From Sphingomonas sp. (lineage in GTDB: Bacteria > Pseudomonadota > Alphaproteobacteria > Sphingomonadales > Sphingomonadaceae), in contig NZ_JAPKNM010000019.1 in NCBI RefSeq assembly GCF_026460985.1, positions 1 through 64,000 of the forward strand: a DNA stretch of 64,000 nucleotides, given 5' to 3'. The notes below the pieces were generated by a model. The model saw only the letters and a program-made list of their open reading frames with translations. It was not told the origin of the DNA and ran no database searches. Both the position numbers and the translations under genes were made by a program. Of this stretch, positions 7,524 to 59,498 are shown one piece after another. Every line of letters starts with the position of its first letter. Position 1 is the stretch's first letter.

Positions 7524-8447
7524 ATGCGCGCAACGATCCTCCTCCTCGCCCTCGCCGCCCCTGCCGCCGCGCAGGAGCGAACCGCCCCCTTCGTCGTCGC
7601 CGAGACGGGACAGGGCTATGCCACGATCGACGAGGCGGTCACCGCGATCCGCGACGATAATGCGACGATCCTGATCGCCCCTGGCACCTATCGCCAGTGC
7701 ACCGTCCAGACCGGCGGCAAGATCGCCTTCAAGGCGCGCCAGCCGGGCACCGTGATCTTCGAGAAGGAAGTGTGCGAGGAAAAGGCCGGCTTCGTGCTGC
7801 GCGGGCGCGGCTCGGCGGTCGATGGCATCGTCTTCCGCGGCTATGCGGTCTCCGACGGCAACGGCGCGGGCATCCGCCATGAGATGGGCGACCTGACGAT
7901 CACCAATTCGATGTTCCTCGACAGCCAGGAAGGCATTCTCGGCGGCGGGCACGAGACGGTGCGCCGGGTCAGCATCGATCGCTCGACCTTCGCCGGGCTC
8001 GGCCAGTGTGAGACCGAGAATTGCAGCCATGCGATCTATCTCGCGGTCGACGGCGAGGTCTCGATCACCCGCTCGCGCTTCGAGCGCGGCACCGGCGGCC
8101 ATTACGTCAAGCTGCGCGCGCGGCGGGTCAACATCACCGATTCGAGCTTCGACGACAGCGCCGGCAGGAAGACCAACTACATGATCGACCTGTCCGAAGG
8201 CGGCACCGGCCTGATCGCGCGCAACACCTTCGTCCAGGGCCGGAGCAAGGACAATCATTCAGGGCTGATCGTGGTGGCGGCGGAGGGGCGGACCTATCCG
8301 TCCGGGGGCCTGCGCATCGAGGACAATGTGGCGAGCATGGCCCCCGGCGCGCCGCCCAACCCGGCGTTCGTGGCGGACCTGAGCGGGTCGACGATCGAGC
8401 TTTCCAACAACAGGCTTGCCGGCATGCGGGCATTCGAGCGGCGGTAA
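7524..8447 (+). CDS. secreted right-handed parallel beta-helix repeat protein
   Basis: Signal peptide MRATILLLALAAPAAAQ; repeated short beta-strand pattern. Confidence 0.7.
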   Translation: MRATILLLALAAPAAAQERTAPFVVAETGQGYATIDEAVTAIRDDNATILIAPGTYRQCTVQTGGKIAFKARQPGTVIFEKEVCEEKAGFVLRGRGSAVDGIVFRGYAVSDGNGAGIRHEMGDLTITNSMFLDSQEGILGGGHETVRRVSIDRSTFAGLGQCETENCSHAIYLAVDGEVSITRSRFERGTGGHYVKLRARRVNITDSSFDDSAGRKTNYMIDLSEGGTGLIARNTFVQGRSKDNHSGLIVVAAEGRTYPSGGLRIEDNVASMAPGAPPNPAFVADLSGSTIELSNNRLAGMRAFERR

Positions 8448-8451
8448 TATT

Positions 8452-8589
8452 CCCCTCCCTGCAAGGGAGGGGTTAGGGGTGGGTGAGAAAAGGTCGGGCT
8501 CGATGCCCGGCCTTTTCTGCTCTTCAGCGCATCTCGATGGGCTCGCTGCGCTCGCACCCACCCCCTACCCCTCCCTTGCAGGGAGGGGA
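8452..8589. repeat. intergenic palindromic repeat, family A copy 1, containing a bidirectional terminator-like hairpin
   Basis: CCCCTCCCTGCAAGGGAGGGGTTAGGGGTGGGTG ... CACCCACCCCCTACCCCTCCCTTGCAGGGAGGGG; inner AAAAGGTCGGGCTCGATGCCCGGCCTTTT. Confidence 0.9.
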
Positions 8590-8594
8590 GTTTG

Positions 8595-17592: not shown

Positions 17593-17905
17593 CGTTCGAG
17601 CCTTTGCTTCGGCCCGTTCACTGGGGCCTGTTGCAACGACTATGAAGCCGGAAATCGATGATGAAAAGCCGATTCACCAAGAAAGAGAGTTAACGATTAG
17701 GCATAGGGCCTATCGCGCCAAACCAAAGGCTTGCGCCGTGCCACGCCGGTACGCGCACGGGGATCGTTAACCATGGCAGGCGGCCCGTCGCGGGCCGGCG
17801 TCCTGCCGCTCAGGCCACCATAAGGATGCGGGAATCGCGCGGGAATCCCGCCGCGACTCGGTTCGCCGTGAAAGCGATTCGGTTGGTCGGAAAGGCAAAC
17901 GGAAA

Positions 17906-18011
17906 GCCCCTCCCCTTCAGGGGAGGGGTTGGGGGTGGGGCCTGTCCGTCTCACCGAGCCTAAAGCCCGAGGCACTGCCCCACCCCAACCCCTCCCCTGA
18001 AGGGGAGGGGC
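17906..18011. repeat. intergenic palindromic repeat, family B copy 1 (may terminate ilvA)
   Basis: GCCCCTCCCCTTCAGGGGAGGGGTTGGGGGTGGGGCCTGTCCGTCTCACCGAGCC ... GCCCCACCCCAACCCCTCCCCTGAAGGGGAGGGGC followed by T-run. Confidence 0.9.
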
Positions 18012-18018
18012 TTTTTTT

Positions 18019-24549: not shown

Positions 24550-24689
24550 TCAATCCTCCCCCGCCAGGGGGAGGTGGCGCCGAAGGCGACGGAGGGGGAG
24601 GTAAGCGGCGCACTCTCCAACTGAGCGCAGTGATTCCGCCCCCTCCGTCAGCCTGCGGCTGACACCTCCCCCTGGCGGGGGAGGATTGA
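24550..24689. repeat. intergenic palindromic repeat, family C copy 1
   Basis: Perfect 26-bp terminal inverted repeat TCAATCCTCCCCCGCCAGGGGGAGGT / ACCTCCCCCTGGCGGGGGAGGATTGA. Confidence 0.92.
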
Positions 24690-24800
24690 AGCCTATCCCC
24701 TCTAGCTTCTCCGACAGCCGCACGGTGGACCCCGGACCACGCCTGTCCTGAGCGCCTGCCCTGCAGGCAGTCGAAGGGGCCGGGGTGACGAAAGCACAAA

Positions 24801-26651: not shown

Positions 26652-26665
26652 GACTCAACTCCTAA

Positions 26666-26770
26666 GCCCCTCCCCTTCAGGGGAGGGGTTGGGGGTGGGG
26701 CCTGTCCGTCTCACCGAGCCTTCGCTTGGGGCACTGCCCCACCCCAACCCCTCCCCTGAAGGGGAGGGGC
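26666..26770. repeat. intergenic palindromic repeat, family B copy 2
   Basis: Near-identical to 17906-18011; 15 bp upstream of the LysR start. Confidence 0.9.
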
Positions 26771-26861
26771 TATAGCTGAGAAACAATCCGTTTCCAACGT
26801 TTCCATTTACCGCATGATCCTCCGCCCTATCTTGGCGCTCAAGAAACAAGGGAGATCAGCG

Positions 26862-30176: not shown

Positions 30177-30181
30177 AATTA

Positions 30182-30287
30182 GCCCCTCCCCTTCAGGGGA
30201 GGGGTTGGGGGTGGAGCATGTAAGTCTCACCGAGCCCATCGCCTGCGGACAGGCCCCACCCCAACCCCACCCCTGAAGGGGAGGGGC
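30182..30287. repeat. intergenic palindromic repeat, family B copy 3
   Basis: GCCCCTCCCCTTCAGGGGAGGGGTTGGGGGTGG ... CCACCCCAACCCCACCCCTGAAGGGGAGGGGC. Confidence 0.9.
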
Positions 30288-30303
30288 TTGCTACATACCC
30301 CCC

Positions 30304-31676: not shown

Positions 31677-31708
31677 GGGCGGTCCGGAGTCGACATCAAC
31701 ATCGCACG

Positions 31709-31854
31709 CCCCTCCCTCCTAGGGAGGGGATGGGGGTGGGTGCGCGCGTCTGCGCGCCCAAAGACTCTCTCGCCTCCCGTGAAACAGCAATGGGCGAGGC
31801 ATCGAGCCTCGCCCATTGCTAACCCACCCCTCGCCCCTCCCTTGCAGGGAGGGG
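31709..31854. repeat. intergenic palindromic repeat, family A copy 3
   Basis: Shares TGCGCGCGTCTGCGCGCCCA module with copy 2; inner perfect 15-bp hairpin 31786-31820. Confidence 0.9.
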
Positions 31855-31871
31855 AATTCAAGTAGCGCCAT

Positions 31872-53768: not shown

Positions 53769-54215
53769 ATGGAACTTCACTACCGCGGGATGGACGGGTC
53801 GGATATCGTGGACGCGGGAGGAGTAGCCGTGTCGAATCTCTTTCGCGTCACCCCCTTCATGCACGTGCCCGACATCGAGGCCGCGATCCATTTCTTCACC
53901 CAGATCCTCGGCTTCGAGTGCCGCTTCCGCCTGGGCAACTACGCCTATGTCCAGCGCGAGGCAGCGGCGTTCCGGCTGAAGGAGAATGTCGGCGACGACG
54001 GCGCCCCGCCGGGCAATCGTCGCTTCTGCTATTATGTCGACGTGAACGACGTCGACGCGATCGCCGCGGAGATCCTCCCCAAGGCCACGCTCCTCAACGA
54101 TGGCGACATCCATGGCCCGGTCGACCAGATCTACGGCCAGCGCGAGCTGATGGTGGTGGCGCCCGACGGCAATCTGCTCGTCTTCGGCCAGGACGTCGCG
54201 CTGAAGCGCGATTAG
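53769..54215 (+). CDS. VOC/glyoxalase-bleomycin resistance superfamily protein
   Basis: VTPFMHVPDIEAAIHFFTQILGFECRFRLGNYAYVQRE ... LMVVAPDGNLLVFGQ. Confidence 0.88.
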   Translation: MELHYRGMDGSDIVDAGGVAVSNLFRVTPFMHVPDIEAAIHFFTQILGFECRFRLGNYAYVQREAAAFRLKENVGDDGAPPGNRRFCYYVDVNDVDAIAAEILPKATLLNDGDIHGPVDQIYGQRELMVVAPDGNLLVFGQDVALKRD

Positions 54216-54218
54216 GTC

Positions 54219-54456
54219 GTATCGACATTCAAATCCTCCCCGCCAGGGAGTGTTGGGTTGGATTGCCCCCGGCAATCCAAGCCCGTGCCGGGGGCACGGG
54301 CGACCCAACACTGTGGCGCCGAAGGCGTCGGAGGGGGAGGTAGGCAGCGCACTCTCCAATTGAGCATGGTGCTTCCGCCCCCTCCGTCAGCCTGTGGCTG
54401 ACACCTCCCCCTGGCGGGGGAGGATTGAAAGGCCTCGCTCGCCCGAATGTCGATAC
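54219..54456. repeat. nested palindromic repeat: family C copy 2 interrupted by a 64-bp palindromic element (54249-54312) and flanked by a 12-bp inverted repeat
   Basis: GTATCGACATTC ... GAATGTCGATAC outer arms; AATCCTCCCC ... GGGGAGGATT family C arms; inner AGTGTTGGGT ... ACCCAACACT. Confidence 0.88.
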
Positions 54457-54469
54457 ATCCTAGGCTCGG

Positions 54470-55216
54470 CTAGAGCGGCACGCTTGCCTCCCCCTTGAAC
54501 CGCGCCACCGTCTCGAAGCTGGCGCCCTCGACTCGGATCTCGTTGAACGAGGGCGGCTTGCTGCGCACGCGTTCGGACAGCGTCCCCGCCCCGATCAGCC
54601 GCACCGTTCGCCCGTTCACTTCATGCACCACGTCGAACGGATCGTGGACATGCCCCGTCAGCACCGCGTGCGCGCCCGCGGTGGCGAGCGCCTCGAGCGC
54701 CACGCGCCCGCGCCAGGTCTTCGACGTCGCCGCCGTCCCGACCTCGATCAGCGGATGATGCGCGGCGACGAAGATCAGGTCGCCTCCGGGAGCAGCCTCG
54801 ACCAAAGCGAGCGATTCCTGCAGCGAGCGCGTGCTGACATGGCCCTTCGACCAGTTGAGCCGCCACTGGAAGCGCGCGGTGGTCTTGAGCGGCACGATCG
54901 CGATTCCCTTCACGTCGAGCGGCCTCTCGATCATGTGCTCGAGCGCCTCGTAGCGCTTGTACGGCGTGACGAAACGTGCCCAGAGGTTGAAATAGGGCAG
55001 GTCGTGATTGCCCACCTCGACCGTCACCGGCCGACCCAGGCTCTCGAGCCATTTCGCCGCGGCCGAGAATTCGCGCGGGCGGGCGCGCATGGTGAGGTCG
55101 CCGGTCATGATCACCGCGTCGGGCTGCTCCTCCCGCACCTTGCGGCCGAACCAGTCGATCGCCTCTAGATCCTCGCGGCCGAAATGGACGTCGCTGACAT
55201 GGAACAGGCGAGTCAT
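54470..55216 (-). CDS. metallophosphoesterase
   Basis: LFHVSDVHFGREDLEAIDWF, MTGDLTMRARPREF, VGNHDLPYF, AVLTGHVHDPF. Confidence 0.93.
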   Translation of the reverse strand: MTRLFHVSDVHFGREDLEAIDWFGRKVREEQPDAVIMTGDLTMRARPREFSAAAKWLESLGRPVTVEVGNHDLPYFNLWARFVTPYKRYEALEHMIERPLDVKGIAIVPLKTTARFQWRLNWSKGHVSTRSLQESLALVEAAPGGDLIFVAAHHPLIEVGTAATSKTWRGRVALEALATAGAHAVLTGHVHDPFDVVHEVNGRTVRLIGAGTLSERVRSKPPSFNEIRVEGASFETVARFKGEASVPL

Positions 55217-59338: not shown

Positions 59339-59350
59339 GCGCGCAATCAT

Positions 59351-59489
59351 CCCCCTCCCTTTAGGGAGGGGTCAGGGGTGGGTAAGGAAAGGTCGGGCTC
59401 GATGCCCGGCCTTTTCTTTTTGTCGAGAGCATCTCGATGGGCTCGCTCCGCTCGCACCCACCCCCAGCCCCTCCCTTGCAGGGAGGGGA
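59351..59489. repeat. intergenic palindromic repeat, family A copy 4, containing terminator-like hairpin
   Basis: Near-identical to 8452-8589 including AAAGGTCGGGCTCGATGCCCGGCCTTTT. Confidence 0.9.
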
Positions 59490-59498
59490 GTAGATGTC

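Follow-up and report, generated by a model that had tools for sequence, protein, structure and literature searches.

A 64-bp palindromic element that takes the place of four bases inside other palindromic repeats of Sphingomonas genomes

Introduction

Among small palindromes described in bacteria, the heterodimers of CGTC REPs (PMC3733652) are nearest to the element examined here in size, stem length and taxonomic range. As described there, a CGTC REP consists of an unpaired tag (CGTC, TGTC or CCTC), a stem of 8–9 bp, a loop of 4–5 nt and an unpaired CCA tail; these REPs occur mostly in alphaproteobacteria, including sphingomonads, are unlinked to transposase genes, and in a few cases form dimers that lie inside other palindromes. 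REPINs, which are mobilised by RAYT transposases (PMC3116915, PMC8266576), are short, structured, gene-less, intergenic and dispersed. Bacterial MITEs (PMC2229807) are the nearest systems in concept; they measure ~70–300 bp, have terminal inverted repeats but no coding capacity, and are presumed to move in trans. Palindromic repeats can also be targets, as for the IS elements that insert into REPs (PMC1525189), and palindromes can be compatible with a reading frame, as for the Rickettsia palindromic elements (RPEs) cited in PMC3733652.

The 64-bp element shares some features with each of these systems and differs from each in others. Like the head-to-head CGTC heterodimers of PMC3733652, it has two hairpins of this size class (8–9 bp) with different stems, arranged with the tag side outwards. 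Its 9-bp stems agree with that definition; its 3-nt loops do not, and neither the tag nor the unpaired tail is present. Instead, it has a paired 10-bp end stem and a fixed length, and it replaces 4 bp. The family may nevertheless be distantly related to one sphingomonad family of that paper. The general description of REPINs also applies to the element, but it lacks the GTAG tag (its invariant bases, GGT/ACC, lie within the paired stem), has two different hairpins rather than inverted copies of one, and needs no Y1 gene in the genome. Like MITEs, it has terminal inverted repeats (10 bp) and no coding capacity, its movement in trans is presumed, and identical dispersed copies with empty and filled sites are found; unlike them, it is only 64 bp long, has variable ends, and shows, instead of a target-site duplication, the replacement of 4 bp (hosts C, D1, E and E2). 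A search of this genome found no related IS. REP-targeting IS elements share its preference for palindromic repeats, but are full IS with their own transposase gene. RPEs resemble a plasmid copy of the element within cobN in being palindromic and frame-compatible, whereas the element lies overwhelmingly inside other repeats, this copy included. A literature search that covered subscription journals thinly found no earlier description of the family.

A nested palindrome in the window

The window is a stretch of 64,000 nucleotides that forms part of contig 19 of a Sphingomonas sp. genome (123 contigs, 4.38 Mb). It contains two copies of a palindromic host repeat, termed C. The first, of 140 bp (24550–24689, plus strand), is uninterrupted. 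In the second, a left part ending in CCAGGG (54232–54248, plus) is separated by the 64-bp element (54249–54312) from a right part beginning with GTGGCGCC (54313–54429, plus), which has 92% identity to 24574–24690 (family D4). In the opposite arm of this interrupted repeat, the target tetranucleotide is still unfilled (54405–54408; GGAG when read on the minus strand).

On the plus strand, the element is bounded by the inverted repeats AGTGTTGGGT (54249–54258) and ACCCAACACT (54303–54312), which pair at 10 of 10 positions. Between them lie hairpin B (54259–54279; stem TGGATTGCC/GGCAATCCA, loop CCC) and hairpin A (54281–54301; stem GCCCGTGCC/GGCACGGGC, loop GGG), each with a 9-bp stem. Arm A comes first on the minus strand, which is the canonical orientation; the covariance model described below scores 90.3 bits on this strand against 62.1 bits on the plus strand. 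As single-stranded DNA, the unit is predicted to fold into a stem that closes the two hairpins, with −30.8 kcal/mol compared with −13.1 ± 2.2 kcal/mol for shuffled versions (z = −7.9), and both strands give the equivalent fold of a 10-bp stem and two 9-bp hairpins. The sequence-only reading had thus placed and delimited the insert correctly, along with its perfect ends and cloverleaf fold; both of its perfect internal hairpins are present, but it gave the TGGATTGCC/GGCAATCCA stem 8 bp rather than 9.

A third layer encloses the interrupted repeat. The 12-bp inverted repeat that the same reading had noticed (54219–54230 and 54445–54456) is real; at 89% it can be lengthened to 18 nt, with the left arm TAGGTCGTATCGACATTC at 54213–54230 and the right arm GAATGTCGATACATCCTA at 54445–54462 (both given on the plus strand). 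Inverted repeats of this kind, around TATCGACATTC, bracket various palindromic repeats (C, D5 and others) and also occur at loci L252, L259, L355, L370 and L371. Among distinct TCGACATTC sites at loci of this genome, 26 of 31 are within 40 bp of a palindromic repeat such as C or D5.

The window contains other repeats too. Those of the type CCCCTCCCC-TTCA-GGGGAGGGG-TT-GGGGTGGGG are found at 17905–18013, 26665–26773, 30181–30289 and 31705–31857; the layout of these host repeats (D1/D5) suggests, by analogy, a hairpin with a third G-rich strand, resembling intrastrand triplex motifs (PMC4666352). Two regions ~51 kb apart, 8446–8591 and 59345–59491, have in common long nested palindromic units (families D2 and D3) around AAAGGTCGGGCTCGATGCCCGGCCTTTTCT.

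Distribution and layout of the family

A genome-wide search by the ends of the unit, as the sequence-only reading had proposed, reveals that it is far from unique. In the 4.38-Mb genome, AGTGTTGGGT occurs 16 times, in all cases as a member of one of 8 facing pairs; the reversed control pattern is absent. Four of the 8 places are ends of contigs that share an overlap of 113 bp and probably represent two physical copies, which leaves about six, five in C repeats and one in another repeat. Eight distinct 64-mers, from this genome and others of the genus, were aligned without gaps and used to build a covariance model. This model finds ~39 places in the genome (E < 0.004; strands merged per place, contig-end duplicates included), copy numbers being those obtained by searching the contigs. 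Matches are present in 216 of 295 Sphingomonas genomes and are full-length (64/64); in an order-wide sample, 30 of 251 genomes have matches, spanning 7 genera, all in the Sphingomonadaceae.

The length of the element is nearly always 64, and its canonical layout is IR10 – Y – arm A9 – CCC – A9′ – T – arm B9 – GGG – B9′ – IR10. On either strand, the CCC loop comes first and the GGG loop second, although loops belonged to the selection filter for the collected copies and their conservation is to be read accordingly. The fixed bases are mainly C11-G12, the T that separates the two hairpins and, where the outer stem ends on its inner side, GGT and ACC. The original definition of the unit by its end sequence therefore holds in part: AGTGTTGGGT ends are indeed dispersed, but what is conserved is the fold with a few bases and not AGTGTTGGGT itself, since most end positions vary in compensated pairs. 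Variant ends go with particular hosts, namely ATGATC in D5 and ATGGGC in the CGCGAAAGCG repeat. There is also a longer variant of 66–68 bp, with a 10-bp arm B and ends ATCAAT (L247:300-367 and L248:300-367, contig 96 of this genome; host D1b), which sits at a different position of the same host repeat type, in place of GGTT.

Four plasmid records contain the element, all from Sphingomonas parapaucimobilis. One of these copies lies in frame within an annotated cobN (L408:596-659, plasmid NZ_CP155756.1), where the net gain of 60 bp corresponds to 20 codons; it is itself inside a host repeat. The phage records searched gave no match, and a scan of viral contigs with the end pattern gave 9 matches, 0 of which had the two-hairpin core. 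A scan of the collection for GTGTTGGGT...ACCCAACAC mostly returned, among the matches listed, GTGTTGG heptamer arrays from Hymenobacter, Acidobacteriota and Prevotella; these have no two-hairpin core and are unrelated. Such arrays often form inverted repeats (among the matches listed, L063–L178, e.g. L097 and L123).

Exchange of 64 bp for 4 bp

Comparison of filled and empty copies of the same hosts, in the sequences extracted for this purpose, reveals an exchange: 64 bp stand in place of GGAG in hosts C, C2 and D1, of GAAG in E, and of AGAG in E2. No duplication of target bases was seen between filled and empty hosts. In the window, the two C copies do provide the empty and the filled site that the sequence-only reading recognised, but plain insertion does not describe the difference, since the 64 bp replace the GGAG found at 24570–24573 (plus) in copy 1. 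These four bases are GGAG in 60 of 61 empty C arms. Host D5 deviates; in most copies, five bases are lost, not four.

The target has a consistent context. The element is placed at GG-N4-GG: of 97 distinct sites, oriented by their G-rich strand, 95 have G immediately before the element and 91 have G immediately after it. Both orientations of the element are used (59 vs 38 sites). When the flanks are joined across the element, 34% of them fold below the 5th percentile of random 80-mers.

Evidence for movement

The C-repeat inserts of this genome are identical, except that one lacks a single loop C. Their hosts are less alike; the four filled C repeats with a full right flank are 85–96% alike, and for two of them the most similar repeat is an empty one. 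Outside the genome, a second species (genome G672, locus L200) has the exact 64-mer of the window within a host repeat of another type, and genome G630 holds three identical copies with three different flanks. The element has thus moved, given that identical 64-mers occur in hosts only 85–96% alike, in different hosts of one genome and in another species, and it has spread independently of its host repeat. The claim of a mobile unit, or one mobilised in trans, is upheld to the extent that a dispersed unit has entered pre-existing repeats; the trans part is presumed, because 64 bp are too few to encode anything.

Nor is the unit a constant feature of its present location. The nest is flanked on one side by a glyoxalase-family gene (53769–54215, plus) and on the other by a minus-strand gene for a calcineurin-like phosphoesterase, which ends at 54470. 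Where both flanks could be aligned in relatives, the orthologous interval holds other palindromes or very little, and in close relatives with both flanking genes alignable neither a C repeat nor the 64-mer was found at this position. Of the lineages compared, only this one thus has the nest as a whole, contrary to a unit present here in all relatives; in a genome set with one genome per species, no strain-level event was observed.

The main rival to an enzyme acting on the element is spread by recombination between host repeats. What moves or recombines would then be the hosts (C, D1, D5 and others), and the insert would be copied from a filled to an empty host by gene conversion over short tracts or by template switching, without any dedicated enzyme. 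The host repeats are indeed abundant, with at least 40 C copies scored, and element variants tend to accompany particular host families, as with ATGATC and ATGGGC above; this association counts against an enzyme and is also what recombination between hosts would produce. Passive copying is difficult to reconcile with the short extent of flanking similarity, since the flanks of identical inserts differ within ~16–40 bp on both sides, and in one C repeat (C74) the copy occupies the opposite arm, with only GTG in common on the right. It also fits poorly with identical 64-mers in different host types and with a net exchange that is precise in unrelated hosts. On balance, passive spread is rather unlikely.

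Covariation and constraint on DNA

Across 68 distinct copies, pairing is kept in 99.2% of the 1904 pair cells, a percentage somewhat favoured by the fact that copies were found and aligned with the structure model. There are 322 two-sided changes, distributed over 24 of the 28 pairs; all three stems vary and yet stay paired. None of 500 shuffles reached these pairing and covariation values. Such changes are prominent even among the eight 64-mers from which the model was built, and most of those had been identified solely by their end sequence.

A compact fold of 64 nt with covariation this strong is also what a small structured RNA gene or an RNA regulatory element would show. Stems maintained as RNA should, however, tolerate G-U far above A-C, and the mismatches observed in the stems are 13 G-T and 17 A-C. 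As G-T is no commoner than A-C, the constraint acts on DNA and not on RNA. The equivalent fold of both strands and the use of either orientation within host repeats point the same way, and a search of Rfam with the element gave no match; an RNA function is accordingly improbable.

Between nearest-neighbour copies with at most 4 differences, 41 changes are two-sided and 22 one-sided. Template switching between the arms of a palindrome yields such two-sided changes (PMC8794818, PMC7202029) and may be what keeps the arms matched; selection for a foldable element would push in the same direction.

Candidate enzymes

The sequence-only reading had suggested looking for an associated RAYT or transposase with matching ends. 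A REP- or REPIN-like element moved by a RAYT or another Y1 (HUH) transposase acting on single-stranded hairpins would account for a substrate that appears to be structured DNA, and two hairpins with outward-facing conserved bases do resemble a head-to-head REP dimer. Moreover, the element is present in 29 of the 33 Y1-positive genomes. It is also present in 187 of 262 Y1-negative genomes, so that the association with Y1 is not significant (p = 0.059), and it has no GTAG tag. A search for Y1 transposases (PF01797; RAYT/IS200) found none in this genome; within the genus, just 33 of 295 genomes have one, and 125 kb of sequence around 20 Y1 loci, within ~3 kb of the genes, gave 0 model matches. 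The RAYT link is thus not supported, and movement by a Y1 enzyme is improbable.

An IS110/IS1111-type recombinase is another candidate, as this family is known to insert into REP sequences and one IS110-family gene is present in the genome; IS elements that target REPs are documented (PMC1525189). Of 14 genomes with the element, 6 yielded no such recombinase (G216, G545, G549, G010, G115 and G630), and all of these 6 have several to many copies; the three identical copies in G630 even look recent. This candidate is therefore very improbable indeed. No autonomous partner, half-element or solo hairpin-A end was found in this genome beyond chance-like matches, AGTGTTGGGT being present only as facing pairs. 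Integron attC sites are defined by a 5′ RYYYAAC and a 3′ GTTRRRY; a relationship with them was rejected, as the motif order is reversed here (GTTGGGT first) and those positions vary in the family.

Proposed mode of action

The most likely explanation is a structure-reading enzyme that acts in trans. Specifically, the 64-bp unit would be a mobile element of the non-autonomous kind: a trans-acting enzyme would recognise the shape of its folded DNA and exchange it for 4 bp; we assign this reading a probability of roughly 0.6. Points against it are that the search for an enzyme yielded none, that most D5 copies have lost five bases, and that host D1b has the 66–68-bp variant. The form recognised would be folded DNA, either a single strand or a cruciform, with the 10-bp stem, the two 9-bp hairpins and the CCC/GGG triloops, and recognition may also use the few fixed bases (GGT...C, T and ACC). 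The putative recombinase or transposase would place the element, facing either way, at GG-N4-GG in the G-rich arm of palindromic repeats that are abundant between genes, with removal of the four central target bases, a net gain of 60 bp and no target duplication. Diverging copies would keep their arms complementary at the DNA level, most likely through template switching at quasipalindromes, combined with selection that favours a foldable substrate. Tentatively, and with the odds against it, the family could even stand for a separate class of mobile DNA: a three-way junction of fixed size, whose shape rather than sequence would be read by the enzyme and which would be swapped for four bases inside other palindromes.

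Implications

Small bacterial palindromes have mostly been explained by RAYT transposases or as decayed IS ends. The 64-bp family occurs in most genomes of a large genus with no evident need for either. It also cautions that covariation alone is no proof of a structured RNA. The exchange of 64 bp for 4 bp sets a sharp constraint that any proposed enzyme would have to reproduce, and the compensated evolution of three stems at the DNA level makes the family a clean system in which to test ideas on the movement of palindromes and the matching of their arms.
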